Source of the DNA: Pseudopyrenochaeta lycopersici | Taxonomy: Eukaryota; Ascomycota; Dothideomycetes; Pleosporales; Pseudopyrenochaetaceae | Reading direction: 5' to 3' | Length of the DNA: 64,000 nucleotides | Assembly: GCA_003313425.1 (NCBI GenBank) | Contig: NHZP01000020.1 | Coordinates: forward strand, 1,010,533-1,074,532 | In this document: positions 3,763 to 52,405 of the stretch, piece by piece | Layout: every line of letters begins with the position of its first letter | Numbering within the stretch: position 1 is the stretch's first letter | Made by a program: the position numbers and the translations under genes | The notes under the pieces: model-generated | Seen by the model: the letters and a program-made list of their open reading frames with translations, nothing else | Databases searched by the model: none | Told to the model about the DNA's origin: nothing

Positions 3763-4404
3763 TCAAGAGGCGTTAAATAAACAGCTGTGGCATACAAAAA
3801 GATGGCCATAACCCTTCGTGAATATGTGTTTGCCGTTTAGAGCTTCTGTAAGGGCTAGGATAGGAACGTTCGTAATTTTATAGATTTGTTGCTTTAGCTC
3901 GTGTCGGTCGCCCAAATGCTTGTCTTCTTGGGAGAAGAAGTTCACGGTACGTGGCGTAAGTAGCTCTTAGAAAGTTCAGCCTTAAGTGAACCAGCGACTC
4001 TCCTGAAAGGCCGGTTCCCAAGAACATAGACAAGATCCGCTGCTCGCTTTGCGCTTGGCTGACGATACGTCTGATAGAAAGACATAACACTTAGCCGCGT
4101 CTCGATACCAGCGAAACATCGAATTGATCGGGTCCTGGAGCTTAATTGGATCTGCCTTGTTAATGCAGCAAGTGTCTACCCAAAAATAACGCAAGTCATC
4201 ACGCTCGGCTTGTTGTCCACAGAACCGAATTTTGTCGTACCCAACCTTGCTGTTTCTGGTGTCGTTCAGCATCTCGTCAAATGTCACCTCTTAACTAGCC
4301 TGCCAGGTATGCAAAAGTATAGCGTAAGTAGAAACTTCATCGTCGTCAATTAAGTCCTTTGCTAAGCTGAACTTGTCGTTCTCGCTGATTTCTAAGAGCC
4401 GCAT
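3763..4404 (-). pseudogene. HET-domain (heterokaryon incompatibility) pseudogene
   Basis: Reading down from an ATG at 4404, the N terminus MRLLEISENDKFSLAKDL and YAILLHTW is the classic start of HET proteins. It continues in one frame through FWVDTCCINK, INSMFRWYRDAAKCYVFLSD, SRWFT and VNFFSQEDKHLGDR. Four stop codons interrupt this single frame (4291-4293, 3982-3984, 3976-3978, 3967-3969) and there is no frameshift. At least the TAA at 4291 and at 3967 fit CAA to TAA, the RIP change. Similarity fades after about 3830, so the C-terminal part of the usual HET region is missing. HET proteins trigger cell death when incompatible hyphae fuse; this copy cannot. Confidence 0.85.
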
Positions 4405-14071: not shown

Positions 14072-14679
14072 TGGCACCTAGTAGCACCTCCAAACTTGGT
14101 CCCGCAGCGCCCACACACAGCGGATAGCCCGATAGTAAGTCACTGTATAACGCATTGATCTAGAGCACGTACTGACTTATACCCCCTTTTTACAGACTGT
14201 GTTATGTGGCATACGGTTGCTGAAGGCGATAATTGTCGGAGTGTTGCAGACAAATACTTCATCACAATGGATCAGTTCTTTTCTTGGAATCCTGCGGTGT
14301 CAAAGGATTGTTTGACGAATTTCTGGAAAGATCAAGCATATTGTGTGCCGACGTCCGATTCGATTAGCATCAGTCGATCTGCCCTGCCGACGGCAACACC
14401 GACCAGTGCATTCGTGATTCCAACCCCGAACCAACCGAACAATGCGATCAGCAATTGTAATAAAGTATCGCAAGCTTTGAATGGAGATTATTGCTCGGTA
14501 AGTCAATCCCTAGAGACTGTCAAAGGGTGATCAACTAACAAGATGGATAGCTGTTCGCCGAACGCAACCAAATTACGATGGCACAATTGTATTCATGGAA
14601 TACAATTCTAGACAATGGCAATGCTTGTGGCACTTCGTTTTGGAAGGACTATTGGTATTTCTTTGGCGTGTCCACGTGA
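14072..14679 (+). pseudogene. Multi-LysM secreted protein, broken remnant
   Basis: Three exons can be joined: about 14072-14134, 14196-14497 and 14551-14679, with introns GTAAGT...ACAG (61 nt) and GTAAGT...ATAG (53 nt). The first exon gives a Pro/Ser/Thr linker ending in HSG, a stop (TAG 14125-14127, probably former CAG), then PDNC. The second gives a full LysM motif: CVMWHTVAEGDNC, ITMDQFFSWNP and AYCVPT. The third continues a second LysM (GDYCS, ITMAQLYSWN, GTSFWKDYWYFFGVST), in which the usual final Cys of YCVG is Phe. LysM modules bind chitin oligomers; secreted fungal versions hide chitin from hosts or rivals. The signal peptide and upstream part are not visible and the stop interrupts the linker, so I call it a pseudogene. 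Confidence 0.7.
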
Positions 14680-18964: not shown

Positions 18965-20564
18965 CTACATAGTGAAAGCCAGCCAAGCTGCTGTCGCGGC
19001 AGGAAGTGAGCTGCACCTGAAAACCCATTCGATAGGATTCTCCAGGTCTAGTTGATGTGCGACCCAGAAGATTGTGCTACTTGCAAGAGCTGCTATAATT
19101 TGGGGTGCCGATATAGCAGCATTGTGCATACCGACGATCGAGCCGGCCTGGCTGACACTCTCGTTTTTGTCATCTTCCTCGAATGTAATGTCTGACTCAA
19201 TTTGGTGCCCCGCTACCTCCTCTCCTATCATCGCAAAAGGCACCCATTGCGTAATGCCCCACGATAAGCCTGAGATCGAGACCATGTACGTTCCAGCCGT
19301 TCTTGAAGAGATCAAGAATGTTGAGAGAAGACTGATAACATAGATCAATTGACCAATTCCCCAGACAATATGAATCTCAGAAAACGTGAGATGCCATGGC
19401 TTGCTGTATCCCCCAAACCCTAAAGAGTTCGATGCTGAGACTGTTAAAAGCTTTGGTAACGCTATACTCGTTCCGAAGGCTACTATTGCGAATAGTAAAC
19501 TTGCTGTAGATCCAATTCTTGTTCCTTCGCTCCGGAGTGTTGATTCCATTTCGGTGTCGATTGTTGGCTGATTATTGATGTAGAGTTGACTGATAAAGCT
19601 TGTGGTGTAAAAGAGGAATCCGAACCAACCCATCCAAGAGAAGAACTGTATATTACAAACACGACGTGTTCGTGGCGACATGGCTGAGAAACCTTCCCTG
19701 ATATGTTCCAGCACCCCCAAGGAGGGGCGATATATTTCTTTCTCTTGGCTTGGTGTTTGTGGGGCCTCTTCCTCGACAAAATAGCAAGTTATCAACGAAG
19801 TGACAAACAGTGTGATGGTAGTGAAATAGATCATGTATCGAAAATTCCAGGCTTCATAGCTACTGGAAAATGGGGCGAGTTGCAAAGATCCAAGGACGTA
19901 TCCAATGACGTTTCCCACGCCAGCAGAACGGCTTGCCCATGCGCTTGCGATAGGCTGTTGCTCTGGTGGACAAATATCCATGGTCAAAGAGCGAAGACCC
20001 AACTGAAGTGGTTGAATTGCAATGTTTAAGAGCACGACTGTTATGATGGTTGCGCATTGCGTAATTGTCGCTCTCGCTTCGTTCCTACTATTTATGCCGA
20101 AAAGTTTACCCAGTGACGACGAGATGGGAGTTATCCAGGCTAATATGGTGGCAGTAAGGATAGTCGCTAACATTCCTCCCAGAATGAATGGCCTTCGTCG
20201 GCCATAAGAGATGCGAGATCGATCACTCATGATGCCCACGATGGGCTGCACTATCGAGCCACAGATTGGCGCGGAGGCCCAGATAAGGGACGATTGAGTT
20301 GTAGTTATGCCAAGAGAAAACAAGTACGACGAGCCATGTGAGAATATTGTTGACCACAGAATTTGTAGTCTGCACAAGTATTAGCTGCTGTGTAACCGCT
20401 CTTTGCTAAACCACGTACCCTCCGACTCCACATGTCATGGCGACTATATACCTAGTAGGAAGTCTTCGATGCCATCGCTTTGGCCGCTCTATAAATGTCA
20501 CTGTATTTGTATTATTGACATTGGGAAAAGCTAAGCGATCTCCAGAAAGAGTTATTGTGGCCAT
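18965..20564 (-). CDS. Sucrose/alpha-glucoside transporter-like membrane protein (GPH/SUT type)
   Basis: Two exons, 20564-20419 and 20369-18965, joined over a 49-nt GTACGT...CAG intron, give 516 residues. The ATG at 20564 begins MATITLSGDRLAFPN; the reading frame continues upstream but without ATG. The join yields CGVGGLQILWSTIFSHGSSY, a typical first membrane helix. Further signs are IVQPIVGIMSDRSRISYGRR, the loop 2-3 signature of proton-coupled sucrose carriers, WASRSAGVGNVIGY, and about 12 hydrophobic helices. Fungal relatives such as S. pombe Sut1 import sucrose or maltose with protons. It lies next to the RiPP-like block, head to tail with a UstYa gene; whether it exports the peptide or just imports sugar is unknown. 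It is full length and shows no lesions. Confidence 0.8.
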
Positions 20565-21550
20565 TAAGCTCCCTATGATCTCTCGATCTTCAAACTGGTG
20601 AAGCAGTCCACAAAACTTCTCCAAATTTTGTATTCCGGGAAAACCTCTAGAATAGAACTAGTTGGCTCGGTGAATAGGACTTTCGGTGACGAGAATTTGA
20701 ATTTCTGAATAACGGATACTTGTTGTGGGCGTTGTAAGACTAATTTCGATGGACTAAATCATGAGCTGCAGGCCTCCAATGTGGTTGAGTTCACTCAACT
20801 CAAAACACCAGTTTACTGCGAATCGAGCTGCATCGATCTGATTGGATGAAGTAGCGATGTGAAAGGAATGACCTCTGCATTACTGGTCATGAAATTACTC
20901 GCATACTAGAGATTACTATAGGGCTTAGTAATGGCTCCCGTCAGCTCCTACTACATGCAAATTGACTATGCTTCGGATAATCTCCGGTATTGAATTAGTC
21001 ATTGTGAAACCAAGGCCATACGGAACTCTAGGTTATCATCGCTCGTCGAGAGCGCTCTCCTTGGCCTATTCTATCTTGACATTTGCGTCAATTTCTATTA
21101 ATCATTGGCTAAGTACCTTCCTAGGCCATCCTTTATCTATATTGCAAAGAGCCTATTTTCAGGAAGTGTGTTCTCCGCCGTATTCGCCTACCAGAAATCG
21201 TCTCTAGATGGTTTAAAATAGCGTGAATTATAGATGACAGTTGTAATCTTTCTTCCCTTTCTGACATGGAATTAATGGGTGGAGTGTATTCAGGCTGCCG
21301 AATTATAGGATGCGGATTGGGTTTTCCGTGTTTCATCACTTCTAGGGTTCATCTAGCCATGGAAGGATATGGTTCCTAAACTCAGAAATGTGGCTCGCTC
21401 GATACTGTCAGCATGCATTGATTGAAACAATCTGTCACCCTTATGTTTGACAAAATTGTTAATTCAATCCAGGCCAGTGGTACTACTAAGTGTGCTGATA
21501 GAACAAGAACTAAGTACAATGTAAGGTGCAAAACTGCCCCGTCTTGCGAC
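20565..21550. other. Intergenic DNA between transporter and first UstYa gene
   Basis: About 1 kb holding the transporter's promoter (minus strand) and the 3' side of the UstYa gene. Normal composition. No further gene could be supported. Confidence 0.4.
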
Positions 21551-22240
21551 TCATACAGGGACAACACACGTAGAATATCCGACCTCCGTCCGTGTACGAA
21601 TATCACCTAGAAACGAGGTAGGCATATCCAGGTGTTCCATCAATGTCTGGCTACAATGTTTTGTATGATGATAGTTGAGCACATGCTTATCCAATAACTT
21701 TCCATCCCGCTCGTAACCTTTGTGTAATCTTCTCCACATCAGAGCGCAATGGATCATGTGCTCTCGGACTGGAGTCCAGTATGCATCTGGTATTTGGTAT
21801 TCTGACATTTCTTCTTCAGTGAGTTGTCGTGTTGCGTTGGCAGAATCATAAGCCTGCCATGGAGCCATGCGTTTGAAATCTGCCAGATTCTCCGTGTCAA
21901 GACACGGAGAGGGGACCCAAATATTTCCCAGCACGTCATATGAACACCCGTTTGCGCGTGCTTCAGTATGCGTCGTGCCACAGCTAAGTGTCCTTGTCTT
22001 AGGGCTGTGTGGTGGAAACGGGCGGAAGATGAAGCCAACAAGTATGGTGAATGAAATTGCTACCACGGCATTAATGATGTATGGTAGTATTGTTTTCAGC
22101 CAGTGGGTCCTTCGGTCTACATCTGGGCCATACTGGGCGTTGTCATCGTGAAACAATGTGGTTTCAGTCGTGTCAGAAGCGTGGGACGATGACGATCTCG
22201 AATCTCTCATTGACTGCGCGTCCTCAGAAAAGAAGACCAT
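21551..22240 (-). CDS. UstYa-family (DUF3328) oxidase 1
   Basis: Intronless, 229 residues from the ATG at 22240. Order: Ser/Thr/Asp-rich cytosolic tail, one membrane helix (about 50-72, IINAVVAISFTILVGFIF), then a lumenal domain. This contains CGTTHTEARANGCSYDVLGN, NIWVPSPCLD and both family motifs, HMIHC (161-165) and HTKHC (192-196). UstYa proteins are oxidases that cyclise, cross-link or desaturate RiPP peptides such as ustiloxin and phomopsin, acting in the secretory pathway on Kex2-released cores. It is closely similar to the gene at 28178-28846 (shared HCALMWRRLHKG and DATRQLTE-type blocks). It starts divergently from the DOMON-b561 gene across 583 bp. All key residues are present, so it should be active. 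Confidence 0.9.
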   Translation of the reverse strand: MVFFSEDAQSMRDSRSSSSHASDTTETTLFHDDNAQYGPDVDRRTHWLKTILPYIINAVVAISFTILVGFIFRPFPPHSPKTRTLSCGTTHTEARANGCSYDVLGNIWVPSPCLDTENLADFKRMAPWQAYDSANATRQLTEEEMSEYQIPDAYWTPVREHMIHCALMWRRLHKGYERDGKLLDKHVLNYHHTKHCSQTLMEHLDMPTSFLGDIRTRTEVGYSTCVVPV

Positions 22241-22823
22241 ATCGATAACTACTATATTGTCAGCCTTCGGGTTGAAAATCAAATATTTGACAGTAAGGCA
22301 TTACTTTCGTTGCTCGATTTAACAACAGTTAAGAAGTAACAGGGATGAGTGGCAGAGCAAAAATTCGCCAAGAAATTTGAAGAGCTGGTTGTGGAGAAAA
22401 CGCCTTGTGGTTTGTGACAGAAGTTCTGGCAAAATGGCAATTACATTGTCTGGATACCTAGATACTAGAGCCGGTGTATTAGTCGTCACAATATGCAACT
22501 TTTGAGACTCTATTTGCTTGCTTACTGCTTTCTTCTAATCTTCTGGGGTTGTGCAGAATCAAGTAGAGGCGTAAATCCAGTCCCAGTTTGCAGTTTTGAT
22601 CATGCTTATAGTCTACAAATACCTTGTCGTTTCACAGTCAGCATGAGTTAGCATGTGCGACGCTTACTATAAGAGAACGCTAGACTAATGTAAGTTAGTA
22701 ACGTCTCCCGCTTGTTGCTCCAAATGAAACCCTTGAATAGTACTTTTTTAGAGCACAATCATATTCTCTTATTATTTCGTGATTTTTTGGTTCTATTATC
22801 TTTACGAGGCGATCAAAAAAGCT
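22241..22823. promoter_or_regulatory. Divergent promoter region, UstYa 1 / DOMON-b561
   Basis: 583 bp between two gene starts that face away from each other, so it must hold both promoters. No specific factor site can be named with confidence. Confidence 0.5.
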
Positions 22824-24285
22824 ATGAAACATCTCAAACTCCTCACTACGCTCTTTGGGGTGCTTAATGTTTGTCAAGGATTGGAGCTATCACAACTATG
22901 CCACATTGAACCGGTAAAGCATACCAACATGTGTATGGCTGTCACGAGCATTAAGTCTCCAAATGAAAGAGGCCATGACTTGCTGATGACATTTTCGGTC
23001 ATGTTCCACCAAAGAAATGGCTGGGCCGCATTTGCAGCTGGAAACATTATGGATCGGGCCTTGATGTTTGTGGTGTGGCCAGGACAACGAGAAGGAGGTA
23101 TTTACTCTATTTCTCATATTAAATCATCAACACATATCGTGAACTGATTCTGTTAAGATATCACTTTTTCTGTGCGTTCGACCACTGGACATCTCCCACC
23201 ACAGCCGCTTAAGAATCAAAGACAAGTTCAAGTTCAGACTGCAGGAATAGACAAGAGCGGGTTTCATGTCCTACAGGTCACTTGTTACGCATGTGAGACA
23301 ATTGGACTTGGCGAACTTAATGTCACAAGCCAGAATCAACCGTGGTTATTTGCGACCAGCTACACACAGCAGACACAATCTAGCGATCCGAATTTACGAA
23401 TGACGCTACATACGGAATACGGTGAGTTGATATTAAAATATTCTTACTCTGTATTCGAATTTGACAAGATATTAGGTCTGAGAATGATTGATATGACTCA
23501 GGCACTGTCCAAAGCCTCGAACGCCGATCATCCATCAGTCACCGTGGATCGGTCTTTGATCCATGCAGTAGATCCTCTTGGACCCTATCAATCGAATACC
23601 TCTACTTCTCTATATCCTCCCATTAATGTGTGGAAAGTCCACGGGCTTATGTTATCTGCCTCAGTTGTCCTTAATTGTCTAGGCATAATCTTGATCAGAA
23701 GTGGAGCGAAATGGGCGTTTCGCAGCCACTGGATCGTACAAACTTTATCTGCGTCCGGATTGCTTATAGGATGCATGATCGGAGTTCTGAAAAGCCGAAA
23801 GGTATTTCAGGTAAGGAATGGAGAGAACCTTACAGGTATACATTTAACTCATCTTTTCTAGATTGAAACCTTGGCCTCGACACATAAATTGATCGGCCTT
23901 GCGATTATGGTCGGGGTGCCAGCCCAAATTACAGCTGGCTATAAGCATCATATCAACTACGTAAAATATGGTCGCCGGACCAGAAGCTCTTTCTTCCATA
24001 TCAATCTTGGCCGAATCCTCTTCTTGGCACTCAATGTGAATGTCTTCATGTGCGTAAAATAAACTCTCTCATAAATAAAGTAAATTATTAACTGGATACA
24101 GGGGCTTGTGGCACGCTAGAGAGCACATTGCCTATGTATGGGGCTGGGGAGCAGTGTTTTTCTTAGAGTCTTCGGCAATAATATGGGTGTTTTTAGCAAA
24201 TTACCGTGCCATAACAAAAGACTATAAGAATGTGGCAGACGACGAAACCGATCCATTCGTGGTTGGAGGCGATGAGGAGAAGTAG
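22824..24285 (+). CDS. DOMON-cytochrome b561 transmembrane redox protein
   Basis: Four exons: 22824-23097, 23158-23810, 23862-24049 and 24102-24285. The introns are GTATTT...AAG, GTAAGG...TAG and GTGCGT...CAG; all joins keep frame and give 432 residues. A signal peptide (MKHLKLLTTLFGVLNVCQG) is followed by a DOMON domain (GWAAFAAGNIMDRALMFVVW, ITFSVRSTTGH, probable haem Met in GNIM). Then comes a cytochrome b561 core with four candidate haem His: VWKVHGLML, FRSHWIVQ, STHKLIGL and FFHINLGR, with GLWHAREHIAYVWGW after the last intron. The tail is acidic. The family moves electrons across membranes, usually to reduce metals or extracellular enzymes. Here it sits between two UstYa genes, so it may feed electrons to their metal centre; that is inference. 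The start is the first ATG before the signal peptide. Confidence 0.85.
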
Positions 24286-24543
24286 ATTTTTGGTTCAGAC
24301 ACGAATGTATCATCTCAATGATAGAGCCTATCCTTTCGTCGCTTCTCCAAGCTAACCACTAACTCATTTTTAGTATGATGTATGTTGGCCATAACCTTTC
24401 CTTTGGCGGGTAACAGAGCAAACCAAGCCAATTATCTACATTCACACCAGGCGTCTGACGCTCACAGCTATCACACACCCCTGGAATGTCATTTCCACAA
24501 CATGATTTCAATTCTCAGTTGCATTATCTATCTTTACATAAGC

Positions 24544-25689
24544 CTAGAAACAAACCTTGCTCTCCCAGAGCAACCTGATGTCTCCTGGTTCTAGGTCATG
24601 CTGAGTTGGACCTCGTTCGCCTCCAGGAAAAGCCATTTCATCCAGGCTGTCTAAGCAATGTTTCATATGCCTATAATCAATATCCCTAGGACACACGTGT
24701 GTGCCGCTCTCCCTAGCCCACCAATATCTCCTTAATGCCAACACGCAATGTGCCATATGGAAGGCCTCGTCACTTAAGACTTGGATTGCATACGGATCAC
24801 TGAGAAATGTTTGGTCCAGATAGAGTTTCTGTTGCCTAATGAGGTCTGCTTCTGGATAGCGACTGCGAAACCATCTCTGGTAGCGTTCTTCTTCAGCGGT
24901 AAATAGATGAGCAGGAACCATAGCCTGATCATCAATTCGAAGTTCCCAGTCAGTGTTGGGTGTGAATTTTTGCCGCTTTTCTGGTGTATCCCAGTCGGTA
25001 ACATTGTGATGATCGAATTGAAGCTGATATCGAGGTCCTTTGCTTTTCTGTGTGTTGTAGCGGATCCAGATACCAGAAGTTGAATTGGCGAGGTAGTATC
25101 CGAGTACAATGAAGAGAAATATGCAGAACAGTAGAGATCCTGCTGTAGCATACACTAGTCCTGAATTGCAGAATTTGCTCGTCCGCCGAGAGCCTTTGGT
25201 TTCTGTTAATGGGAGATAAAGCTGCTTCCCTCTTTGTCCGAACAAAATTGAAGCGATTCTTGAGTGGATTTTGCGAGGCATTGATGATGAAGCCAGAACA
25301 TCGTGGTCTAAAATCATACGCTCCTCTTCCAATGAAAATCTCAGGTCGCTCAAGCTCTGATGGTTGATCTCGAGAAGAGTAACAAAGCTACCCACTCGCG
25401 TTTTATTGCTCGTGTTTTCCGTAAACGTTAAGATAAGGGAGGCATTTCCCGCTTTTCTCTCTTGAAGATATTCAAATACTCTGGCAACAGCGCTCTTTGT
25501 CGTGAATCGAGCGGGCTCGCGTGTTGGTCCGATGAAGAGGACATAAATGCCATGTCTGCCGTGTACGATGTGCCGCTGCACGAATTGTGCATTAGCAGCC
25601 TCCTCAAAGATCAACTCGATGTTTGTCGCATCGGCCTTCGCATCTATTCCAAAGCTATATGGGTTCGAGGAGTCTCCGTGAACTTCCAT
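24544..25689 (-). CDS. UstYa-family (DUF3328) oxidase 2 with long N-terminal extension
   Basis: Intronless, 381 residues from the ATG at 25689; the open frame extends upstream but has no ATG. Most UstYa proteins have about 220-280 residues. Here a 176-residue N-terminal region precedes the membrane helix (177-200, GLVYATAGSLLFCIFLFIVL). It has regular alpha/beta-like patterns (IELIFEEAANAQFVQRHI, HGIYVLFIGPTREPARFT) that I cannot assign. The lumenal part has both motifs, HMAHC (311-315) and HMKHC (341-345), and ends in WESKVCF. By topology the extension faces the cytosol. It converges with the DOMON-b561 gene, 258 bp apart, and starts divergently from the precursor gene. The catalytic part is intact. 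The extension may be a regulatory or docking domain, or a fused gene. Confidence 0.85.
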   Translation of the reverse strand: MEVHGDSSNPYSFGIDAKADATNIELIFEEAANAQFVQRHIVHGRHGIYVLFIGPTREPARFTTKSAVARVFEYLQERKAGNASLILTFTENTSNKTRVGSFVTLLEINHQSLSDLRFSLEEERMILDHDVLASSSMPRKIHSRIASILFGQRGKQLYLPLTETKGSRRTSKFCNSGLVYATAGSLLFCIFLFIVLGYYLANSTSGIWIRYNTQKSKGPRYQLQFDHHNVTDWDTPEKRQKFTPNTDWELRIDDQAMVPAHLFTAEEERYQRWFRSRYPEADLIRQQKLYLDQTFLSDPYAIQVLSDEAFHMAHCVLALRRYWWARESGTHVCPRDIDYRHMKHCLDSLDEMAFPGGERGPTQHDLEPGDIRLLWESKVCF

Positions 25690-26190
25690 TGTAGGTGATT
25701 TACAGAATTCGGAGTGTGAGCACAAAGTGTGCTTCAAGAGTCATTCATAAATTGACTATATAGGATCACAAGAATCATAGAGTACAGAGCACTGCACTTG
25801 AATCATTTCACTCAATTAGAACCCAAAGTTTCGCTAACGCTGAATAGCAAGTAAGGCTTCGTCAGCGCTTAGTAGGTACCTTGTAGTAGTCTCTTTACCA
25901 GTATTAACTATTTTACAGAGCCCGAGCTTCAATCTAGGTAATCAGGTTAGTCGAGAAAGGATTAGTATAATCATACTGTGCAACAGCTTTCATGTGTAAC
26001 CTCTCAAGTTTGATCGTAGCTTCTAGTGGTAGGTTTTGTAGTTTGCTAGACGTGTCACACAGGATATAAAAAGCAAAGTTAATCGGGACCTCACAACTAT
26101 CAACACTCGAAAACATTTCAGCACCCAAACAAATTCAATAAAGAAACATTTTCAAATTTCTGTGGTTCTGAGCGTTCATTCCTGTTCATC
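25690..26190. promoter_or_regulatory. Divergent promoter region, UstYa 2 / precursor
   Basis: 501 bp between the start of UstYa 2 (minus) and the repeat precursor (plus). The right half holds a TATA-like box, described separately. The left half shows no clear motif. Confidence 0.5.
26065..26072 (+). promoter_or_regulatory. TATA-like box of the precursor gene
   Basis: TATAAAAA about 120 bp before the precursor ATG, followed by a C/A-rich leader (CACCCAAACAAATTCAATAA) as is common for strongly expressed fungal genes. Confidence 0.45.
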
Positions 26191-26949
26191 ATGAAGCCTA
26201 CTGCCATTCTTTCAACCCTCATGGGCATGTCCGTCCTTGTCGCTGCGCTGCCTCTGGAAGCCGGCCTCGACAGCCTGAGTAAGCATAAGCCCTTGAGTCC
26301 AGAAAGAATCGAGAGTGTCCTGACGGAGCTTAACGCCCCAGAACCATGGGAGAAACGATCGCCTCAGAAGAAGATTGATGCCGTCGACGTCGAAAAGCGT
26401 CAGAAGAAGATTGACGCTATTGACGTTGAAAAGCGATCCCCTCAGAAAAAGATTGATGCAGTGGATGTTGAGAAACGCCAGAAGAAAATTGATGCCGTTG
26501 ACGTCGAGAAACGCCAGAAGAAAATCGATGCGGTTGATGTTGAGAAACGCTCACCTCAGAAAAAGATCGATGCAGTGGATGTTGAGAAGCGTCAGAAGAA
26601 AATCGATGCTGTAGATGTCGAGAAACGCCAAAAGAAGATTGACGCCGTTGACGTTGAAAAGCGCCAGAAGAAAATCGATGCGGTTGACGTTGAGAAGCGT
26701 CAGAAGAAAATCGATGCTGTAGATGTCGAGAAACGCCAGAAGAAAATCGATGCTGTAGATGTCGAGAAACGTCAGAAGAAAATCGATGCTGTAGATGTCG
26801 AGAAACGCCAAAAGAAGATTGACGCCGTTGACGTTGAAAAGCGCCAGAAGAAAATCGATGCGGTTGACGTTGAGAAGCGTCAGAAGAAAATCGATGCTAT
26901 AGATGTCGAGAAACGCCAGAAGAAGATTGATGCCGTTGACGTCGAGTAA
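26191..26949 (+). CDS. Kex2-processed repeat precursor, probable RiPP (dikaritin-like) precursor peptide
   Basis: Intronless, 252 residues. A signal peptide (MKPTAILSTLMGMSVLVAAL) and a leader to residue 56 end in WEKR. Then come 16 repeats, each closed by KR except the last, which ends at the stop. Thirteen are QKKIDAVDVE or the Ile variant QKKIDAIDVE (units 2 and 15), and three (units 1, 3, 6) carry an extra SP in front. Kex2-type proteases cut after KR in the Golgi, so the gene should release 16 near-identical peptides. UstA, PhomA, AprA and the victorin precursor are built the same way and are modified by UstYa proteins, four of which surround this gene. Unlike the ustiloxin, phomopsin and asperipin cores, this one has no aromatic residue. 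Codon choice differs from unit to unit while the protein stays constant, which indicates selection on the peptide. An unmodified signalling or wall peptide is the alternative. Confidence 0.9.
   Translation: MKPTAILSTLMGMSVLVAALPLEAGLDSLSKHKPLSPERIESVLTELNAPEPWEKRSPQKKIDAVDVEKRQKKIDAIDVEKRSPQKKIDAVDVEKRQKKIDAVDVEKRQKKIDAVDVEKRSPQKKIDAVDVEKRQKKIDAVDVEKRQKKIDAVDVEKRQKKIDAVDVEKRQKKIDAVDVEKRQKKIDAVDVEKRQKKIDAVDVEKRQKKIDAVDVEKRQKKIDAVDVEKRQKKIDAIDVEKRQKKIDAVDVE
26359..26946 (+). repeat. Coding tandem repeat, 16 units of about 36 bp
   Basis: Units are 36 bp (42 bp for the three SP-bearing ones). A larger pattern is laid over them: 26590-26718 is repeated without change at 26770-26898, an offset of 180 bp, or five units. 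This points to recent unequal exchange within the array. Confidence 0.9.
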
Positions 26950-28177
26950 GGTGACAGCATCAAGCGGAACGAGGGCAACAAATGGGAATTTGTTTCGCAC
27001 CGCAATGTTGCCCAGAGCTGAATTGCTGATCATCAATTAACGATGTTATTTGCCCTCACTATCAAGAAACATTATACTAAAGTTGGAGTTGAGAGACTTT
27101 CAATTCTGGAGATGAGAAGTGTACCCACCAACGGTGGTTGAGGCTGAGAAATTTGGGTTATTGTCATTCATTTATAGATGAAGCTAGAGAGTATAGTCTG
27201 GAAGGTTTTGTGTTGTTAGCCTCTATCGAATTGTTACATGTACTTAGGGATAAGAGAAGAGACCCGAATTGAACCGATGTGCTCATTTCCACCCACCATG
27301 GAGTTAGTTACTTTGCATGGAGGAAACATTCGCTCTCCAAATTTCCTGTGACACTTTCTAATAGGCTAACGCCGCAGATCAAGTAATAGATACTTCTACT
27401 CCCTCAACGTGAAACTGTAGCATTTGAAAGTATTATATGCTTTGTGCATTCAGAATTGGATCGCATTGATCCTAATAATATGACAACATTTAGAGCCATC
27501 ATATTCGAATGCTTCGTAAAATGCTGTGATCGTGTCTATTACATCAGGCACAACTTTAAACACAATACAACGAGGTAAAATTGGTTGCGTATCTTAATAA
27601 CCACAAACTGTGTTGCATTTTACGATCTTAATTCTAGATAGGACTAAAGATCAGACTAAGAAAGCGATGCACACTAAGTTTTGGGAAAGATAGCTATGAC
27701 TGTCTTTGCTCAAAAATCCGGCTTAAGGTTAGATGGATGATGTCATCAGGCAGACTTTGTGCTTTGTGCGATATGGAGTGCAACCGAAATTTATTGAGGT
27801 TAAACTATTATGGGACAGTAAGTTACGCATGTAATCAGGCGAGTTAGGCCTACAGCTTCATAGGGGGCCCAGCCGGAGATCAGATAGGCAGGGAGGCACC
27901 GAAACCAACTCGTCATGCAGCTCTTGACTCAATGTATTCTACTGATCTCACTAATTGCGTATCAGCACCTGCTCCCTACTCAAACGTGAATGCTGGTAAG
28001 TTATGCCACAGTATGAAATTTCCCATGCCATCGTACTTATTGTCCTATCTGATATTCTTAATATTCTCAAACTGGATCTTATCAGACTCATATAATCATT
28101 CTCCTAGTTCTGATGTCCTGGCTACAATTTGGTAATTGAAAAACAAGGCGATCCTCACAAGACGCTTTTTGAGTATT
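26950..28177. other. Intergenic DNA between precursor and UstYa 3
   Basis: 1.2 kb between two gene ends that point at each other. It contains the 3' regions. A short ORF near 27915 with a leader-like start (MQLLTQCILLISLIAYQHLL) ends after 24 codons and cannot be supported as a gene. Confidence 0.4.
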
Positions 28178-28846
28178 TCAACTGGGAACGACGCAAGTAG
28201 AAAACCCCGGAATTGTTTGAGAAACGATCATGTCCATCACTGACCTATCCTTTTCCAGAAAGTCTATCATAAGCTGCGAACAGTGTGCCGTATGCGCATA
28301 TGCCCTGACATGAGAGTCTAGATATCGCTCATCTTCTTTAAAGCCTTTGTGCAGCCGCCTCCACATTAGAGCACAGTGAACCATATGCTCACGAATGGGT
28401 GTGAAATAGGTCTTTGGGCTAACGACGTCGCCCATTTCGTCTTCAGTCAGTTGGCGTGTAGCGTCGCGAGTCTCGTATGCTTGCCACTGAGCAAGCCGCT
28501 TAAAGTTATCAAGGTTTTCCTTATCGAGACATGGTGTTGGAACCCATATATTGGAGAGAACGTCGTAGGTGCAGCCCAATGCTCGAGCCTCAGTTGACGT
28601 GGAACCGCAGTGAAGTATGATTTTCTGGGGAACCCGGGCCGGAAAGGGCCTAGAAAGGAAACCAGCCAGTGTTGTTACTGCTGTTGCAAACAGAAATGTG
28701 AGTATGTGAAACAAAACTTTACTCTTCAGGCCTTGTCGTTTGAAAGATAAAGATTTGTAGTTGCTGGGCTCCAATAGTAATATTTTCTCGAACGACTCTT
28801 CTGCCGATTCGACTTTATGGTAGGACGTATTGCCTGGAACGTCCAT
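28178..28846 (-). CDS. UstYa-family (DUF3328) oxidase 3
   Basis: Intronless, 222 residues from the ATG at 28846. Cytosolic tail of about 50 residues, one membrane helix (FHILTFLFATAVTTLAGFL), then the lumenal domain with GSTSTEARALGCTYDVLSN and WVPTPCLDKENLDNFKRL. The two motifs are HMVHC (154-158) and HTAHC (185-189), both intact, and the protein ends in STCVVPS. It is a clear paralogue of oxidase 1, with which it shares HCALMWRRLHKG and the WQAYE/DATRQLTE stretch. Two similar but separate copies suggest successive steps on the same peptide, or one copy per site. It converges with the precursor gene and starts divergently from oxidase 4. Confidence 0.9.
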   Translation of the reverse strand: MDVPGNTSYHKVESAEESFEKILLLEPSNYKSLSFKRQGLKSKVLFHILTFLFATAVTTLAGFLSRPFPARVPQKIILHCGSTSTEARALGCTYDVLSNIWVPTPCLDKENLDNFKRLAQWQAYETRDATRQLTEDEMGDVVSPKTYFTPIREHMVHCALMWRRLHKGFKEDERYLDSHVRAYAHTAHCSQLMIDFLEKDRSVMDMIVSQTIPGFSTCVVPS

Positions 28847-29410
28847 CCTGAGTTCTGTCTTATAATTAGTGTATATTTTCTAGTAGTCGAGAAGAGATGA
28901 TGGTACTTTTAGATTTCCGAGAAACAACAGAAATACAATAATTGCCTTTCCTAATCACTGCATCTAACTATCATAGCCTTCAATTAGGGACCTCGAGAAT
29001 CAAGAAAGACACGGACATGGAGTAATTGGTGCGAACGATCCGAATACCAATGGACATAGAAAATTCTGTACAGTCAGCCATTTGCTAAGAAGTCTAACGA
29101 TAAATGAATCTGGAGTACATATTACACAATGATGATGACTAATTTCTAATAATTATGGGTTACTTCTAAATTCTAGTGGAATATAGTAAGCATGAGTAAG
29201 CTAGCTTAGTGCTTGTACGTTTTGGTGTTCTGGTCAAGTGAGATTTTCCGAAGTTTCCGAAGATAGCCGACACAGGTTACATTTAACAGGAAGGTACTTC
29301 GAAGCAGGTTATTCTATAAGATTGGAGACTTTAGAACCAAACTGTGACTATCTACTCTACGACTGCAAATCACATTTAATATCTTATACAAATGTTTAAC
29401 AAATTCAAAT
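28847..29410. promoter_or_regulatory. Divergent promoter region, UstYa 3 / UstYa 4
   Basis: 564 bp between two opposing starts, so it must contain both promoters. No specific motif is claimed. Confidence 0.45.
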
Positions 29411-30094
29411 ATGTCTCGTTTCTTTAAGACGTTGAGGTCTTCTCAGAGCCAATTGACCCAAGAGGATAAGGAGGAAAACCGTACACTGCTTTCGGATCTA
29501 CCTACAACAAGAAGAAAATGGTTATCGAATGGCACTGTTAGGATAACTATTGCTATACTTATAATTATCCTCCTTGGGTTTATTATATTGCTCAGCCTGT
29601 CCACGACTATGAACACCAGTAGATCCCGGAATACACTACCGTACACAGACTGTGGAAAGAATTACTCTATGGCTGTCGCAGCTGGGTGTATATTTGACGT
29701 TTTAGCTACTACATGGGTACCGCCAGAATGTCACAACGCTACTCTGTTCAACGAATATACATCGCGGCTGCCAAAACCGATGTTCTACCGATGGCCAAAT
29801 TTAACAGAGCCTCTTTCAGAAGACCCACAGGAACTTGTTGCGTATGAAACGATATGGTCATATGGAGAGTTCCATACAGCGCACTGTCTATATCTCCTTC
29901 AGTGTGGTGCTTTAGCAGCCGCAAAAGTGTCGGCTGGGCATCAAAATGTTCTCACGAACAATCACGCAACATCGCTCTGGCACATAGGACACTGCACTAA
30001 AAATGTCTTTAACAGCCTTTCTTATCCTGAAAATAACACAGAAATCAAAAATGCTGCTAGATCTTCTCTCTTTTGCAAGGTATTACCAGTATAG
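29411..30094 (+). CDS. UstYa-family (DUF3328) oxidase 4
   Basis: Intronless, 227 residues from the ATG at 29411. Short basic tail, one membrane helix at about 42-66 (ITIAILIIILLGFIILLSL), then a lumenal domain. This has CGKNYSMAVAAGCIFDVLA, TTWVPPECHNATLFNEY and motifs HTAHC (155-159) and HIGHC (191-195). It is more distant from oxidases 1 and 3 than they are from each other, and lacks the CALMWRRLH block (CLYLLQCGALAA instead). This suggests a different position of action on the peptide. Several N-x-S/T sites fit lumenal glycosylation. It is the last gene of the alternating six-gene block. Confidence 0.9.
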   Translation: MSRFFKTLRSSQSQLTQEDKEENRTLLSDLPTTRRKWLSNGTVRITIAILIIILLGFIILLSLSTTMNTSRSRNTLPYTDCGKNYSMAVAAGCIFDVLATTWVPPECHNATLFNEYTSRLPKPMFYRWPNLTEPLSEDPQELVAYETIWSYGEFHTAHCLYLLQCGALAAAKVSAGHQNVLTNNHATSLWHIGHCTKNVFNSLSYPENNTEIKNAARSSLFCKVLPV

Positions 30095-40656: not shown

Positions 40657-41393
40657 ACGTGCCCCACCACCTGAGGAACGCTACCACCTGAGGCACGCGC
40701 TAAAAGAAAACTACACCCCCTCTAACTTTCTAAATACTATAGCTATTAATATAAAACTTTAATATATAACTTTACTATATATAAGCTAAAAATAACATTA
40801 AAAATTACAAGATTTAAGTATATAATTATAAAGTTATTTAACTTTTAAATTTTAGCTTAAGAAAACTATTTACTGTAATATCTTTATAAGTATTAATAAT
40901 ATAAGTATAAAATTAAAATAATATATTTATTATATACTATATAGAATATTATAAAATTTAAAGTTTTAATAATATAAGCTTATAAAGTTATAGTACTTTA
41001 AAATAGCTAATTATAATTATATTTTATACTTAATAAAATAAAAGTATATAATTTAAAAATTAAAGTTAAAAGCATTATGTGGAGGAAAAAGGGAGAGCTT
41101 GGCAACAGTTACCCAGGTGATCTATGAGATGGACCACTGTTTTGTCTAGGAGGCTTTGAGAGCCAGCTATATAAAGGAGAGCTGAGCACGGCCTATTACA
41201 GGGGCCATTGTACGGTAGGAGCGTGAGCAGCGTGTACGCGTGCGCGAGCGCGCACGTGATCGCGCACGTGAGCGCGCACGTGAGCCTACCGTACCCCAGG
41301 TCACAGCGCGTTGTTTGCAACACATTAAAAAGTAATTATATATATTAAAGTTATAAATATATATAAGTATAAAATAATAATACAAGTTCTAAC
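40657..41393 (+). repeat. Left arm of the foldback element, interrupted by a solo LTR
   Basis: Inverse copy of 43623-44109; the only gap is the LTR and its target duplication at 41078-41327. The arm is AT-rich beyond its first 50 bp. Confidence 0.85.
41078..41322. mobile_element. Solo LTR inside the left arm, target duplication CATTA
   Basis: 245 bp from TGTGGAGG to TTTGCAACA, with CATTA on both sides (41073-41077 and 41323-41327). The opposite arm near 43684-43693 has the undivided sequence with one CATTA, which proves the insertion. It is GC-rich and unmutated. Near 41230-41286 it carries repeats of GCGCACGTGAGC/GCGCACGTGATC between inverted GTACGGTAGG and CCTACCGTAC. Confidence 0.9.
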
Positions 41394-43622: not shown

Positions 43623-44109
43623 GTTAGAACTTGTATTATTATTTTATACTTATATATATTTATAACTTTAATATATATAATTACTTTTTAATGCTTTTAA
43701 CTTTAATTTTTAAATTATATACTTTTATTTTATTAAGTATAAAATATAATTATAATTAGCTATTTTAAAGTACTATAACTTTATAAGCTTATATTATTAA
43801 AACTTTAAATTTTATAATATTCTATATAGTATATAATAAATATATTATTTTAATTTTATACTTATATTATTAATACTTATAAAGATATTACAGTAAATAG
43901 TTTTCTTAAGCTAAAATTTAAAAGTTAAATAACTTTATAATTATATACTTAAATCTTGTAATTTTTAATGTTATTTTTAGCTTATATATAGTAAAGTTAT
44001 ATATTAAAGTTTTATATTAATAGCTATAGTATTTAGAAAGTTAGAGGGGGTGTAGTTTTCTTTTAGCGCGTGCCTCAGGTGGTAGCGTTCCTCAGGTGGT
44101 GGGGCACGT
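43623..44109 (-). repeat. Right arm of the foldback element (keeps the empty LTR site)
   Basis: Uninterrupted inverse counterpart of 40657-41393. Confidence 0.85.
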
Positions 44110-47935: not shown

Positions 47936-48125
47936 TCGCAGCTGGAGTGCTGAAGCTAATATCTCGTAAGATTACCCAATCCATCACCGCACTCCATAAC
48001 TTAGCCTCTTACTAAGGCGTGTGAGATACTTCTAATCTTAAGCTAGCAGCAGCTTTAAACAGAGACTTAAAGGTAGGCTATACAGGCGTTTCTATAAGCT
48101 AGCTAGTTAAAAGATCTATATAGTA

Positions 48126-50244
48126 ACGTGTTCCACCACCACGCGCACGTCCCTACGGCTCGCACGCGAACGCGATTTTCCATCCAATCTTCAACACGCG
48201 ATAACTCCATCAAAATGGCGAATATTCAGGCTGCAGTTGATGCCCTGAATTCCTTGAAGATAGGCGAATCTTTCCGTTATTCAGATTATGCAAAAGAATT
48301 TGGTTGCGATCGGTCAACGCTGTCGAAGAGGCACAGAGGTGTACAGCAACCGCGTGAGCAGTATATCAAGAATGGCAGATTACTGAACACCACGCAAGAA
48401 AGAGAGCTTGTACAGTATATCCATAAGCTTTGCGCACGAGGGCTACCTCCTTCTAAGCCTATGATACAAAATTTCGCAGCCCAGATAGCTCAGAGACCTG
48501 TTGGCAAAAATTGGGCTGATCGCTTTGTCGAGCGTCACAACATTGAGCTCCTCTCACATTGGGCATCCGGCCTCGATCGCAACCGCTTCAAAGCTGACTC
48601 GGCCTTTAAGTACGCACTCTACTTTGAGCTCCTCAAGCGAAAAATTGAAGAATATAAGATTGATGCGCGTCAAATGTACAATATGAATGAGAAAGGCTTC
48701 CTTATTGGCGTGCTATCTAAGGTCAAGCGCGTCTTCTCAAGGACAACATACGAGGCAGGAAAATTGAAGCACATACTCCAGGATGGTAATCGTGAGTGGG
48801 TAACTACTATAGCTTGCATCTGTGCTGATGGTACTGCCCTCACGCCTGCTCTCATCTACCAAGCTCAATCAGGTCAGATCCAAGATACGTGGTTACAAGA
48901 CTTTGAGCCTCAGCATCATAAAGCCTTCTTTACCTCCTCACCAAATGGATGGACGAGCAACCAGCTAGGCCTAGCATGGCTCAAACAGGTGTTTGATCGC
49001 GAGACAAGAGTGAAGGCTAGGCAATCTTGGAGGCTGCTCATCCTTGACGGCCATGGATCTCATGTATCCATGGATTTTATAGACTACTGCGACAAGAACA
49101 AGATCCTCCTTGCTATCTATCCTCCTCACTCAACCCACACGCTTCAGCCGCTTGACGTCTGCATGTTTGCGCCTCTCGCAGCTGCTTACTGTCATGAGCT
49201 ATCTAGCTTCATGGACCAGGCTCAGGGCATCAGCTCAATCACTAAGCGAGATTTCTTTCGACTCTTCTATCGAGCCTGGAGCTTATCTTTCACTGAGCAA
49301 GCTATCCTTAAAGCTTTTAAAGCTACAGGGCTCTCGCCTTTCAACCCTGACGCTATCCTCGCACGATTCAAAGTAGCACCAAGCAGCGATCCTAGGCCCT
49401 CATCAAGTGAGAGCTCCTCCTCTATACTTAGTGCAAGCGACTGGAGAAAGATAGAGAGGCTGCTAAGGCAAGCTGTGGATAATATCTATAATAACAAGTC
49501 AAAGAAGCTTAGCCGATCTCTCCACGCCATCTCAGTCCAAAATACTCTACTTCAACACGAGAATTTGCAGCTTAAAGAAGCTCTTAGCAATGAGCAGAAG
49601 CGTAGGAAGCGTGGCAAGGCCTTGCCCCTCGAGTTTCCCCAGGATTATAATGGTGGTGCAATGTTCTGGTCACCCTCAAAAGTTGAGGCTGCTCGCGAGC
49701 GCCAGAGGCAAAAGGACGCCGCAGTGCAGCAGCTGCAACACCAAAAAAGTGAGGCTATGAGGCTTCGCGAGCAACAGAAGCTTGCTAAGGCTGAACTGCT
49801 TGAACAGAGGCAAAGGATGAAGATTGCAGCCAAAGAGAAGCGAGATAGCGAGAAGGCCTTAAAGGCAGCTCAGCGAGAGGAGGCAAAAGTTGCTAGGGAG
49901 ATTCAGAAACAACTCCAGCAAGATATAAAGATATCTAAAAAAGGCAAGAAGCAAATCTTTAAGCTAGGTAGAGCTAAAGAGGCAGTGGTGGTTGAGGAGG
50001 AGCCTGTTGTTGTGCAAGACGCTGTGGTGGCTACTTCTCGTCGAGGGCGACCAATTAAGCCACCACAGAGGCTGCTTATATAATCTAGCACTGCGAAACT
50101 ATTGTATATAGTACTATAAGCTCACCACCAAAAAATCTCGCTGTAATATACTTTATACGTGGCTGTAGAGCCTCATTTAGTTTGGTGGTTGCATTGGTTT
50201 TTGCGTGCGAGCCGTAGGGACGTGCGCGTGGTGGTGGAACACGT
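48126..50244 (+). mobile_element. Fot1/pogo-type DNA transposon, structurally complete
   Basis: 2119 bp flanked by TA on both sides, with perfect 42-bp TIRs (48126-48167 and 50203-50244, starting ACGTGTTCCACCACCACGCG). It has a single long transposase ORF and no RIP signature. The perfect TIRs and open ORF imply recent arrival. Confidence 0.95.
48215..50083 (+). CDS. Pogo/Fot1-type transposase, first catalytic Asp replaced by Asn
   Basis: 622 residues from the ATG at 48215 (MANIQAAVDAL); the 29 upstream in-frame codons overlap the TIR. Order: HTH_Psq-like DNA-binding domain (about 1-60, YAKEFGCDRSTLSKRHRG), CENP-B-like HTH (about 60-125), DDE_1 domain (about 150-360), then a Lys/Glu/Gln-rich coiled coil (about 440-590). 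The DDE triad would be residues 158, 278 and 314. The second and third are seen as LILDGHGSH and LQPLDVCMF, with the usual 35-residue spacing. At 158 the motif is YNMNEKGF where family members have NxDExGF. The change GAT to AAT removes a metal ligand, so the enzyme is probably inactive in cutting while still able to bind TIRs. Confidence 0.92.
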   Translation: MANIQAAVDALNSLKIGESFRYSDYAKEFGCDRSTLSKRHRGVQQPREQYIKNGRLLNTTQERELVQYIHKLCARGLPPSKPMIQNFAAQIAQRPVGKNWADRFVERHNIELLSHWASGLDRNRFKADSAFKYALYFELLKRKIEEYKIDARQMYNMNEKGFLIGVLSKVKRVFSRTTYEAGKLKHILQDGNREWVTTIACICADGTALTPALIYQAQSGQIQDTWLQDFEPQHHKAFFTSSPNGWTSNQLGLAWLKQVFDRETRVKARQSWRLLILDGHGSHVSMDFIDYCDKNKILLAIYPPHSTHTLQPLDVCMFAPLAAAYCHELSSFMDQAQGISSITKRDFFRLFYRAWSLSFTEQAILKAFKATGLSPFNPDAILARFKVAPSSDPRPSSSESSSSILSASDWRKIERLLRQAVDNIYNNKSKKLSRSLHAISVQNTLLQHENLQLKEALSNEQKRRKRGKALPLEFPQDYNGGAMFWSPSKVEAARERQRQKDAAVQQLQHQKSEAMRLREQQKLAKAELLEQRQRMKIAAKEKRDSEKALKAAQREEAKVAREIQKQLQQDIKISKKGKKQIFKLGRAKEAVVVEEEPVVVQDAVVATSRRGRPIKPPQRLLI

Positions 50245-50257
50245 TATACTATCCTTA

Positions 50258-50966
50258 CCGAGGTGGACGGCGTAACGAGCCAGACGGCGTAACGAGCCAC
50301 TTTTCCCTAGTAAATCTGCCAAAATCCTATCTCTATTTCTATTTTTCTAGCTTCTTTTAATACATAAAAAGAAAAAGTGTTAATATTAAAAATATATTTT
50401 AAAAGTAGCTTTATAAATCTAGTTGATTATAATATTAAAAATAAATTATTTAAAAAATACACTAATTTTTAATAAAAATAAATAATATATTTTATAAATT
50501 TTTTCAATATAGCTTTAAAGCTTATATTATAGATTCTAAGTTTTAAATAACTAAATAAATATATAATTTATTTATAATCTTACACTATATTTCCTAAAGT
50601 TACATAGAAACTTTTATTAAGAGAAAAGTTTATATAAGTATATTATTAGAGATAATCTATATATTTACCTAGCTATTTAAAACTAAGAATCTATAATATA
50701 AGCTTTAATGCTATATTAAAAAAAATTTATAAAATATATTATTTATTTTTATTAAAAATTAGTATATTTTTCAAATAATTTATTTTTAATATTATAATTA
50801 ACTAGATTTATAAAGCTACTTTTAAAATATATTTTTAATATTAACACTTTTTCTTTTTATGTATTAAAAGAAGCTAGAAAAATAGAAATAGAGATAGGAT
50901 TTTGGCAGATTTACTAGGGAAAAGTGGCTCGTTACGCCGTCTGGCTCGTTACGCCGTCCACCTCGG
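50258..50966. mobile_element. Palindromic foldback/MITE element
   Basis: 709 bp flanked by TA. Almost the whole length folds back: arms of about 300 bp start CCGAGGTGGACGGCGTAACG and differ at only a few bases, around a spacer of about 100 bp. The motif ACGGCGTAACGAGCC occurs twice at each end. It is non-coding and sits 11 bp after the previous transposon's TA and about 8 bp before the next one's TA. Confidence 0.9.
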
Positions 50967-51056: not shown

Positions 51057-52399
51057 ATGTCTCCACCAATTCAACCTCAACTAGCTCCTCGCGAGGCTAA
51101 CGTTAATCTCGCAATCTTAGCTCTTAATCTAGATCAAATTCAGACTGAGCGAGTCGCTGCACAGACGTTTGAGGTCCCTCGAACCACGCTTCAGCGCCGC
51201 CGCGCTGGCGTGCTTGCCCGACGCGATTGCCAGCCCAACTCAAAGAAGCTTACCCAGCTAGAAGAGGAGGTAATAGTTAATTATATCCTTGATCTAGATC
51301 AGCGTGGATTTCCGCCTACGTACGCAGCTATAGGTGATATGGCTAATAAGCTGCTAGCAGCGCGCAGTTAAGGTAGGGTTGGGCAGAAGTGGCCATATAA
51401 CTTTGTCAAGCGTACAGACAGTCTTACGACACGTTTTACCCGAGCGTACGATAGGCAGAGAGCTCTATGTGAAGACTCTCAGCTAATAAGCTGCTGGTTC
51501 AAGCTAGTAGAGGAGACAAAGGCAAAATACGGCATTGCAGATGAAGATACATATAATTTTGACGAAGCTGGCTTTAGGATGGGTAAGATCACGACTCAGC
51601 TAGTCGTGACTGGGTCAGAGAGGAGGGGTCGGCCAAAGGCTATCCAGCCAGGCAACCGCGAGTGGGTAACGTTGATTCAAGGCATTAATGCAGCTAGCTG
51701 GACGGTCCCACCCTTCCTAATCTTTGCTGGCCAGTATCACCTGTCTGCCTGGTACCAGGAGGATGCTATTCCACGCGACTGGGCTATTTCAGTTAGTAAT
51801 AATGGCTAGACAACTAATTAGCTTGGAGTAGCGAGGCTAAAGCACTTTGATGCTCACACAATACAAGGGTAGTAGGCGCGCGTCGGCTGCTTATCCTTGA
51901 TGGCCATGAGAGCTATCACTCTCTTGAATTTCAAGAGATCTGCAGAGAGAGCAACATCTATACCCTCTGCATGCCACCACACTCATCTCATCTGCTGCAG
52001 CCTCTTGACGTTGGCTGCTTCTCTCCTCTCAAGAAGGCGTACAGCCGCCAGATAGAGAGCTTAATCAAGGCCCACATCAACCACATTACTAAGCTTGAAT
52101 TTCTGCCTGCCTTTAAAGCAGCCTTTGATCAAGCTTTCACTTCAGCAAATATACGCTCAGCATTTCGAGGGGCAGGCCTTGTCCCCCTCCAGCCAGACGT
52201 TGTCTTGTCAAAGCTAGATGTTCAACTGCGTACGCCATCACCAGCAGCTCAACTGCGTACGCCATCACCAGCAGCTCAACTCGCAGCTCAGCAAGGAGCT
52301 CAGCAAGGAGCTCAGCTAGGAGCTCAGCTAGGAGCTCAGCTAGGAGCTCAGTTAGGAGCTCAGTTAGGAGCTCAGTTAGGAGCTCAGTTAGGAGCTTAG
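51057..52399 (+). pseudogene. Fot1/pogo-like transposase, broken by stops and frameshift
   Basis: The start reads MSPPIQPQLAPREANVNLAI, then an HTH_Psq-like segment (FEVPRTTLQRRRAGV) and a CENP-B-like part to 51368, where TAA interrupts it. The DDE region follows: YNFDEAGFRMG keeps the first Asp, then PGNREWV, stops near 51807-51823, a frameshift, LILDGHES and [20 protein letters not shown]. The C terminus runs into an Ala-Gln-Leu-Gly repeat and a stop. No product is expected. Confidence 0.85.
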
Positions 52400-52405
52400 C
52401 TAGGA
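52286..52405 (+). repeat. 12-bp minisatellite in the transposase C terminus
   Basis: Ten copies of GCTCAGCTAGGA or variants (GCTCAGCAAGGA twice, GCTCAGTTAGGA four times, and one with GCTTAG giving the stop). It encodes (AQLG)n. Before it a 27-bp segment with CGTACGCCATCACCAGCAGC is duplicated. Confidence 0.9.

Follow-up and report, generated by a model that had tools for sequence, protein, structure and literature searches.

A candidate peptide maturation cluster of Pseudopyrenochaeta lycopersici with a tyrosine-free repeat precursor, four UstYa-like proteins and a DOMON-cytochrome b561 as putative electron donor

Dikaritins, i.e., ustiloxin, phomopsin and asperipin-2a, are fungal ribosomally synthesized and post-translationally modified peptides (RiPPs). 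Their clusters combine a secreted precursor with KR-separated repeats, several membrane enzymes with paired HxxHC motifs beside it, and an adjoining transporter. Repeat precursors next to DUF3328 (UstYa) genes are already known, cores without Tyr among them; in a survey of Kex2-processed repeat proteins (KEPs), 1,758 of 7,878 had DUF3328 genes nearby, with a mean of 1.7 such genes per KEP gene having any and five for phomopsin (PMC7329392). Here, we analyze a locus of this kind in Pseudopyrenochaeta lycopersici. It lies in a stretch of 64,000 nucleotides of the 62.7 Mb genome (the window, C20:1010533-1074532, contig NHZP01000020.1) and comprises six genes in 21551-30094, from the stop codon of enzyme A to that of enzyme D. 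Judged from their sequences, these genes rather probably form a cluster for RiPP maturation that brings its own redox supply, in which a decapeptide released by Kex2 would be oxidized by four UstYa-like enzymes, A to D, and a DOMON-cytochrome b561 protein (DOMON-b561) would feed them electrons. Two features set the locus apart from known clusters, namely the divergent enzymes and the putative built-in heme relay.

The initial annotation had described a precursor with 16 KR-separated repeats, and we found it in a single frame with KR between all cores (Table 1), i.e., with the near-identical repeats and KR/RR Kex2 sites by which KEPs are recognized. The core reads QKKIDAVDVE in 14 units and QKKIDAIDVE in the other two, SP stands directly after KR and ahead of the core in three of the 16, and the last copy runs to the stop codon. 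At the N-terminus hydropathy peaks at residues 3-24, where a putative signal peptide would lie. With Tandem Repeats Finder (TRF) the array scored 636, far above chance. Purifying selection on the cores is strong: across all 16 we counted 61 differences from the consensus, two of which change an amino acid, the variation lies at third positions, and pN/pS within the cores was 0.012. Counted as 15 distinct substitution events, the array holds one amino-acid change compared with 12.2 expected at random, and none of 20,000 random draws was as low.

Searching the own genome with the precursor gave one match. Among the 8,000 public candidates scored, i.e., those sharing most words with it, one relative was found, P0001, on a contig of 2,374 bp. 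Its core is exact in nine of nine copies and its leader has clearly diverged. From this conservation, and from the third-position variation within the array, we conclude that the core is the selected part of the precursor. It contains no Tyr, Phe, Trp or His, and the computed MH+ is 1144.62 for QKKIDAVDVE, 1127.59 for the pyroglutamyl form and 1158.636 for the Ile variant. The KEP motif QKLKVD of Pezizomycotina also starts with QK and is free of aromatics in the six residues given (PMC6339444); its sequence is different, and no relation to the cluster core has been shown.

Around the precursor, four DUF3328 genes had been proposed, each with two HxxHC motifs. The motifs are present in all four proteins; the family label did not hold at the curated Pfam cut-off for UstYa (PF11807, 25 bits), with scores of 15.8 for D, 14.2 for B and 10.0 bits for A, and C not listed at E ≤ 0.1. 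Each protein has one hydrophobic segment, and the motifs are 30-36 residues apart. CctR, a DUF3328/UstYa enzyme, shares this layout: it has a single N-terminal transmembrane (TM) segment, and two helices carry its HxxHC motifs some 30 residues from each other (PMC12435403). In AlphaFold2 models of A and B, both motifs likewise lie on helices after the TM segment, at a mean pLDDT of just 65.1 (A) and 65.7 (B). In contrast to canonical UstYa, the window enzymes would belong to divergent subfamilies, B has an additional N-terminal domain, and behind the second HxxHC motif the chains have a shorter tail than the canonical pieces compared. By profile comparison D is a remote relative of A and C (hhalign probability 96.6, E 6.3e-10). 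Elsewhere in the genome (C14:510-514 kb; L063:2528-3418 and 702-1637), another divergent HxxHC/HxxHC protein adjoins a Pfam-recognized UstYa gene; it is a remote relative of A and D, and a repeat precursor was not seen in the 20 kb read.

A search for relatives of repeat and enzymes, as initially suggested, yielded 48 enzyme matches besides P0001. The enzymes were searched publicly with an alignment of all four, D being included only as part of it, and the matches divide into 16 A-like, 26 B-like and 6 C-like proteins. Both HxxHC motifs were found in 46 of them, whereas P0017 and P0044 carry one. Close relatives of A (95%) and C (94%) are intact in public assemblies. All relatives with a name come from fungi; close ones were found in Periconia, a member of the Pleosporales, and in Alternaria, Corynespora, Plenodomus and Neocucurbitaria, which likewise belong to this order. 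PF11807 was matched at E ≤ 1 by 13 of 24 members of the A/C family (best E 0.0055) and by 20 of 27 members of the B family (best E 1.2e-05), and the B-like P0034 has it as a precomputed domain. Motif, topology and these weak Pfam matches support an assignment of A to D as UstYa-like. With four such genes, the locus was rightly called rich in UstYa enzymes when compared with the mean of 1.7 given above (PMC7329392). A Pfam-based survey of DUF3328 neighbours at 1E-5, as in that study, would probably miss this cluster.

The additional domain of B is modelled with block-mean pLDDT values of 79-90 over residues 21-90. From about residue 15 to 115 it is predicted to be folded and expected to be cytosolic; a clear fold match was not found. 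As 21 of the 26 B-like relatives are 359-482 residues long, a similar N-terminal extension would be present in these, poorly conserved in sequence.

The DOMON-cytochrome b561 gene had been recognized initially without being given a role; in our view no other part of the cluster is as informative. Its assignment was borne out by Pfam, with 62.4 bits for the cytochrome domain of cellobiose dehydrogenase (CDH; PF16010, cut-off 27) and 24.7 bits for b561 (PF03188, cut-off 23); DOMON itself (PF03351) scored 13.7 bits, under its cut-off of 32.7. We spliced five exons manually (22824-23097, 23158-23421, 23476-23810, 23862-24049 and 24102-24286), intron 2 having other in-frame choices, and from end to end the product can be aligned with a 411-residue Periconia protein. 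Against the CDH cytochrome 1d7b, the profile of the DOMON family (A4) gave an alignment with E 0.0039. Counted along this alignment, M76 and H176 fall opposite residues 65 (Met) and 163 (His) of 1d7b, which we take to be the heme-ligand numbers of the CDH cytochrome. Five of the six proteins in the family keep both positions; P0054 begins only behind the Met, and at the His its alignment row is gapped. H235, H264, H299 and H337 are kept in all six, and their conservation and spacing suggest that they are the b561 heme ligands. The protein thus combines the AA8 and b561 profiles, the Met/His positions and the four b561 His that mark a CYBDOM protein, in the order known from CYBDOM and CDH cytochromes, i.e., AA8/DOMON with Met/His positions, then b561 with four conserved His (PMC10691727, PMC4507011). 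Met/His heme ligation is described as unusual for CDH, and in CYBDOM proteins the DOMON side is non-cytoplasmic (PMC10691727), the same side as the catalytic C-terminus of CctR (PMC12435403). In contrast to those systems, the gene found here lies inside a peptide cluster, and the likely partner would be the UstYa-like enzymes, not a lytic polysaccharide monooxygenase (LPMO) or iron. Among 6,167 scored candidates we found five relatives at E ≤ 0.001, and the four named ones are from Periconia or Alternaria.

That the genes serve one peptide family had been proposed initially, and two further loci speak for it. In the window the order is A(-), DOMON-b561(+), B(-), precursor(+), C(-), D(+), with strictly alternating strands and therefore three head-to-head gene pairs. 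On the same contig, about 0.3 Mb away, lies a relic (C20:728228-730572; L060:3228-5572). It consists of an A-like gene (-), the 5' half of a DOMON-b561 gene (+) and a remnant of the precursor that includes a stretch resembling the core, collinear with the window cluster in order and orientation. All three contain stops, and neither the b561 half nor counterparts of B, C and D were found at this locus. We rejected decay by repeat-induced point mutation (RIP). RIP indices give no pointer to it in the relic (0.76, 1.24) or in the cluster (0.76, 1.25), and the differences in the relic run in both directions, not from C to T only. Its G+C content is normal, and together with the indices this indicates old decay rather than RIP.

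The second locus is in Periconia macrospinosa, where orthologs of B (91% over 174 residues), C (80%) and DOMON-b561 (82%) were each found on a contig of 193,056 bp. In a genome of 54.99 Mb (PMC5910433), equal contigs for three unlinked genes would be unlikely by chance (about 1e-5 by our estimate), and the three are hence probably linked in this species. In the own genome we located at least 21 UstYa-type and at least 19 DOMON loci, lower bounds from intron-blind searches with matches merged within 20 kb; A to D and the relic were added to the UstYa-type loci from protein searches rather than from Pfam. A DOMON or b561 match within 50 kb was found at two of the 21, namely this cluster and the relic, and the association is thus specific. 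Relic and Periconia support the six genes as one working unit.

From these observations we propose the following maturation route. The precursor would enter the secretory pathway, where Kex2 would cut after each KR, a Kex1-type carboxypeptidase would trim KR, and a STE13-type dipeptidyl peptidase would strip the leading SP from the three units that carry it. Processing by known enzymes of this kind would release QKKIDAVDVE from 14 of the 16 units and the Ile variant from two. In the own genome, one match to the P domain (Kex2 type) and three to DPPIV_N were found. XP is a STE13-type signature (PMC6339444), and Kex2, Kex1 and dipeptidyl peptidase together would therefore give nearly one product. 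The four membrane-anchored UstYa-like enzymes, with their HxxHC pairs on the lumenal side, would bind two coppers and oxidize the core with O2. Since Tyr, Phe, Trp and His are all absent from it, the aliphatic C-H bonds of Ile, Val, Ala, Lys and Asp are likely targets, and the chemistry would be a hydroxylation, desaturation or cross-link rather than a Tyr ether. DOMON-b561 would cross this membrane too, its heme domain on the lumenal side, and electrons may pass from a cytosolic donor via the b561 hemes and the DOMON heme to the copper of the UstYa-like enzymes. The product would then be exported, perhaps by the neighbouring transporter.

For the copper chemistry, CctR gives the precedent: two coppers are held by its HxxHC(x)nHxxHC motif, the enzyme requires O2 and Cu(I), and the authors of this 2025 study hypothesize an accessory protein for electron transfer or Cu(I) delivery (PMC12435403). 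A role of DOMON-b561 as electron donor to the cluster's copper enzymes is suggested by analogy. The CDH-type cytochrome on its own reduces the copper of LPMO (PMC4507011), and DOMON-b561 proteins, their heme ligated by Met and His, were proposed to act as a redox bridge (PMC10691727). A search of open-access papers, with relevance judged by title and with subscription papers and preprints outside its scope, found no relevant one that combines UstYa/DUF3328 with DOMON, b561 or AA8. The logic of animal neuropeptide processing is similar. There, convertases carry out the dibasic cleavage. Lumenal copper oxidation by peptidylglycine α-amidating monooxygenase or dopamine β-hydroxylase, and electron supply through a transmembrane b561 come with it, and in neuroendocrine vesicles b561 supplies the copper monooxygenases via ascorbate (PMC12563681). 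The copper enzymes are unrelated as far as tested, so that we draw an analogy and claim no homology.

How far the locus is of the dikaritin type, as initially stated, can be judged from the list of Ding 2015 as quoted in PMC12048977. Pfam scans were run on the six proteins of the cluster and on 14 further open reading frames (ORFs) of the window, i.e., on a part of its ORFs, and genes with short exons could escape them. The dikaritin type holds for the precursor with leader and repeated cores and for the transporter or peptidase, where the MFS frame at 18965-20380 would qualify, its membership being suggested by position only. For the multiple DUF3328 proteins the picture is mixed, all four having two HxxHC motifs and none reaching the PF11807 cut-off. 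It does not hold for the tyrosinase and methyltransferase genes, which were not found in the ORFs scanned, nor for the Tyr expected in a dikaritin core, as QKKIDA[V/I]DVE is free of aromatics. A peptidase was not found among the 14 other ORFs either, in line with the initial annotation, which had seen none of the three nearby. Since tyrosinase and methyltransferase were not found in the ORFs scanned, the cluster is strictly no dikaritin cluster by the five-gene definition. We conclude that it would work like a dikaritin cluster but fails parts of that definition, and that it differs from the described ones by its core without Tyr, by enzymes under the Pfam UstYa cut-off and by the DOMON-b561 gene inside it.

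Several points weigh against a functional cluster with its own electron donor. None of the four enzymes is a UstYa protein by the Pfam cut-off, and the A/C profile gave no proper alignment with four canonical UstYa pieces of the own genome (8 columns, E 0.064). Close relatives or orthologs of D were not found, D having entered the public search only within the four-enzyme alignment. Among the candidates scored with the precursor there was none with this core from Periconia or Alternaria, and an A-like Periconia protein was not among the enzyme matches. A promoter word common to the intergenic regions of the cluster was not found. In the relic, the match to the precursor is weak (tblastn E 0.001, blastn E 6e-04), genes copied in a segmental duplication stay adjacent even if no function ties them, and the linkage in P. 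macrospinosa follows from equal contig sizes, not from read sequence. A further point is that at 19 of the 21 UstYa-type loci no match to DOMON or b561 lies within 50 kb. Such a neighbour is hence no general need, and these loci must be supplied by other donors, by small reductants or by unlinked proteins. The 19 loci would also fit a genuine RiPP cluster in which DOMON-b561 reduces extracellular iron or copper, or does another redox job, and is linked to the peptide genes by history. DOMON-b561 proteins are ferric-reductase candidates (PMC10691727), and CctR activity was raised in vitro by ascorbic acid, NADH and NADPH (PMC12435403). We nevertheless regard this as rather unlikely because the DOMON gene sits between A and B, head-to-head with A, the A-DOMON pair recurs in the relic, and the contig of the Periconia ortholog equals that of B and C in size. 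Moreover, only five relatives of this DOMON-b561 subtype were found at E ≤ 0.001 among the candidates scored, the named ones all come from Periconia or Alternaria, and Alternaria also has A-like enzymes, with linkage between the two not seen there.

Two other explanations concern the cluster as a whole. Four HxxHC enzymes interleaved with the precursor inside 8.5 kb, and an enzyme A together with a precursor remnant in the relic, make it improbable that an unmodified signalling or pheromone-like peptide is secreted and that the UstYa-like genes adjoin its precursor gene without any relation to it. Such a peptide would match the 6,120 of 7,878 KEP genes that have no nearby DUF3328 gene, as well as a core without Tyr, given that Tyr occurs in 65.6% of the repeats found beside DUF3328 genes (PMC7329392), and SP ahead of some cores resembles the STE13 sites of pheromones (PMC6339444). 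A pheromone precursor proper was rejected because it gives no fit to the neighbour pattern. We consider it very improbable that the cluster is itself decaying and without product like the relic, whose stops on the same contig, together with the AT-rich tracts on both sides of the cluster, might suggest this: the frames of the six genes are uninterrupted and their motifs intact, the cores are under selection, the RIP indices are inconspicuous, and the close relatives of A and C are intact. Of all readings, we regard the RiPP cluster with its own redox supply as the most probable.

Outside the six genes, the MFS gene adjoining enzyme A (18965-20657) seems to have its first exon in another frame, upstream of 20380. 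The Pfam matches among the 14 other ORFs were HET, LysM, ankyrin, short-chain dehydrogenase/reductase, a weak zinc-dehydrogenase and DDE transposase; the HET domain fragment (3985-4290) and the LysM domain fragment (14159-14527) lie in the window flanks. A Tc5/DDE transposase gene at 48107-50080 precedes two short tandem repeats at 50266-50299 and 50925-50965, which have a 17-bp unit, are mutual reverse complements and look like element ends. Another pair of 17-bp tandem repeats (40666-40698 and 44068-44100), nearly reverse complements and about 3.4 kb apart, may be the ends of another element. In ORF 51851-52399, which is DDE transposase-like by eye, tandem 27-bp and 12-bp repeats at 52222-52409 code for a repeated QLGA-type tail.

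Table 1. Features of the peptide cluster and its neighbourhood, in window positions (TM, transmembrane segment; MFS, major facilitator superfamily)
Feature	Position	Strand	Remarks
MFS transporter, main open frame	18965..20380	-	MFS_1 52.8 bits; adjoins enzyme A; possible cluster member, by position only
Enzyme A, 229 aa	21551..22240	-	UstYa-like; one TM; HxxHC at 161 and 192
Presumed shared promoter A/DOMON-b561	22241..22823		583 bp between divergent starts; placed from gene starts
DOMON(AA8-type)-cytochrome b561, 414 aa	22824..24286	+	five exons by manual splicing
Enzyme B, 381 aa	24544..25689	-	UstYa-like; N-terminal domain of ~100 residues before TM; HxxHC at 311 and 341
Presumed shared promoter B/precursor	25690..26190		501 bp between divergent starts; placed from gene starts
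Repeat precursor (KEP)	26191..26949	+	single open frame, 252 aa; hydrophobic N-terminus, short leader, 16 cores
Tandem core array, 16 units	26365..26946	+	TRF; 36-bp period, 42 bp where SP precedes core
Enzyme C, 222 aa	28178..28846	-	UstYa-like; paralog of A, 48% identity
Presumed shared promoter C/D	28847..29410		about 565 bp between divergent starts; placed from gene starts
Enzyme D, 227 aa	29411..30094	+	UstYa-like, distant from A/C; HxxHC at 155 and 191

DUF3328 enzymes functionalize inert C-H bonds, and for the route by which electrons reach them in the secretory lumen an accessory protein was postulated (PMC12435403). With a DOMON-b561 inside the cluster, again in the relic and alongside the cluster genes in a second species, the donor question becomes open to test. 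The aromatic-free core would need chemistry other than the Tyr-Ile ether of ustiloxin and phomopsin (PMC7329392), and the enzymes point to UstYa-like subfamilies that lie below the Pfam cut-off and are hence missed by it. We put forward with some hesitation that the locus may hold the first dedicated electron donor for UstYa/DUF3328 copper enzymes, i.e., a transmembrane DOMON-b561 heme relay that would serve the maturation of a Tyr-free ribosomal peptide by a UstYa-like branch unseen by Pfam mining, and that would be a fungal counterpart in logic to the b561-fed copper monooxygenases in peptide-secreting animal vesicles.

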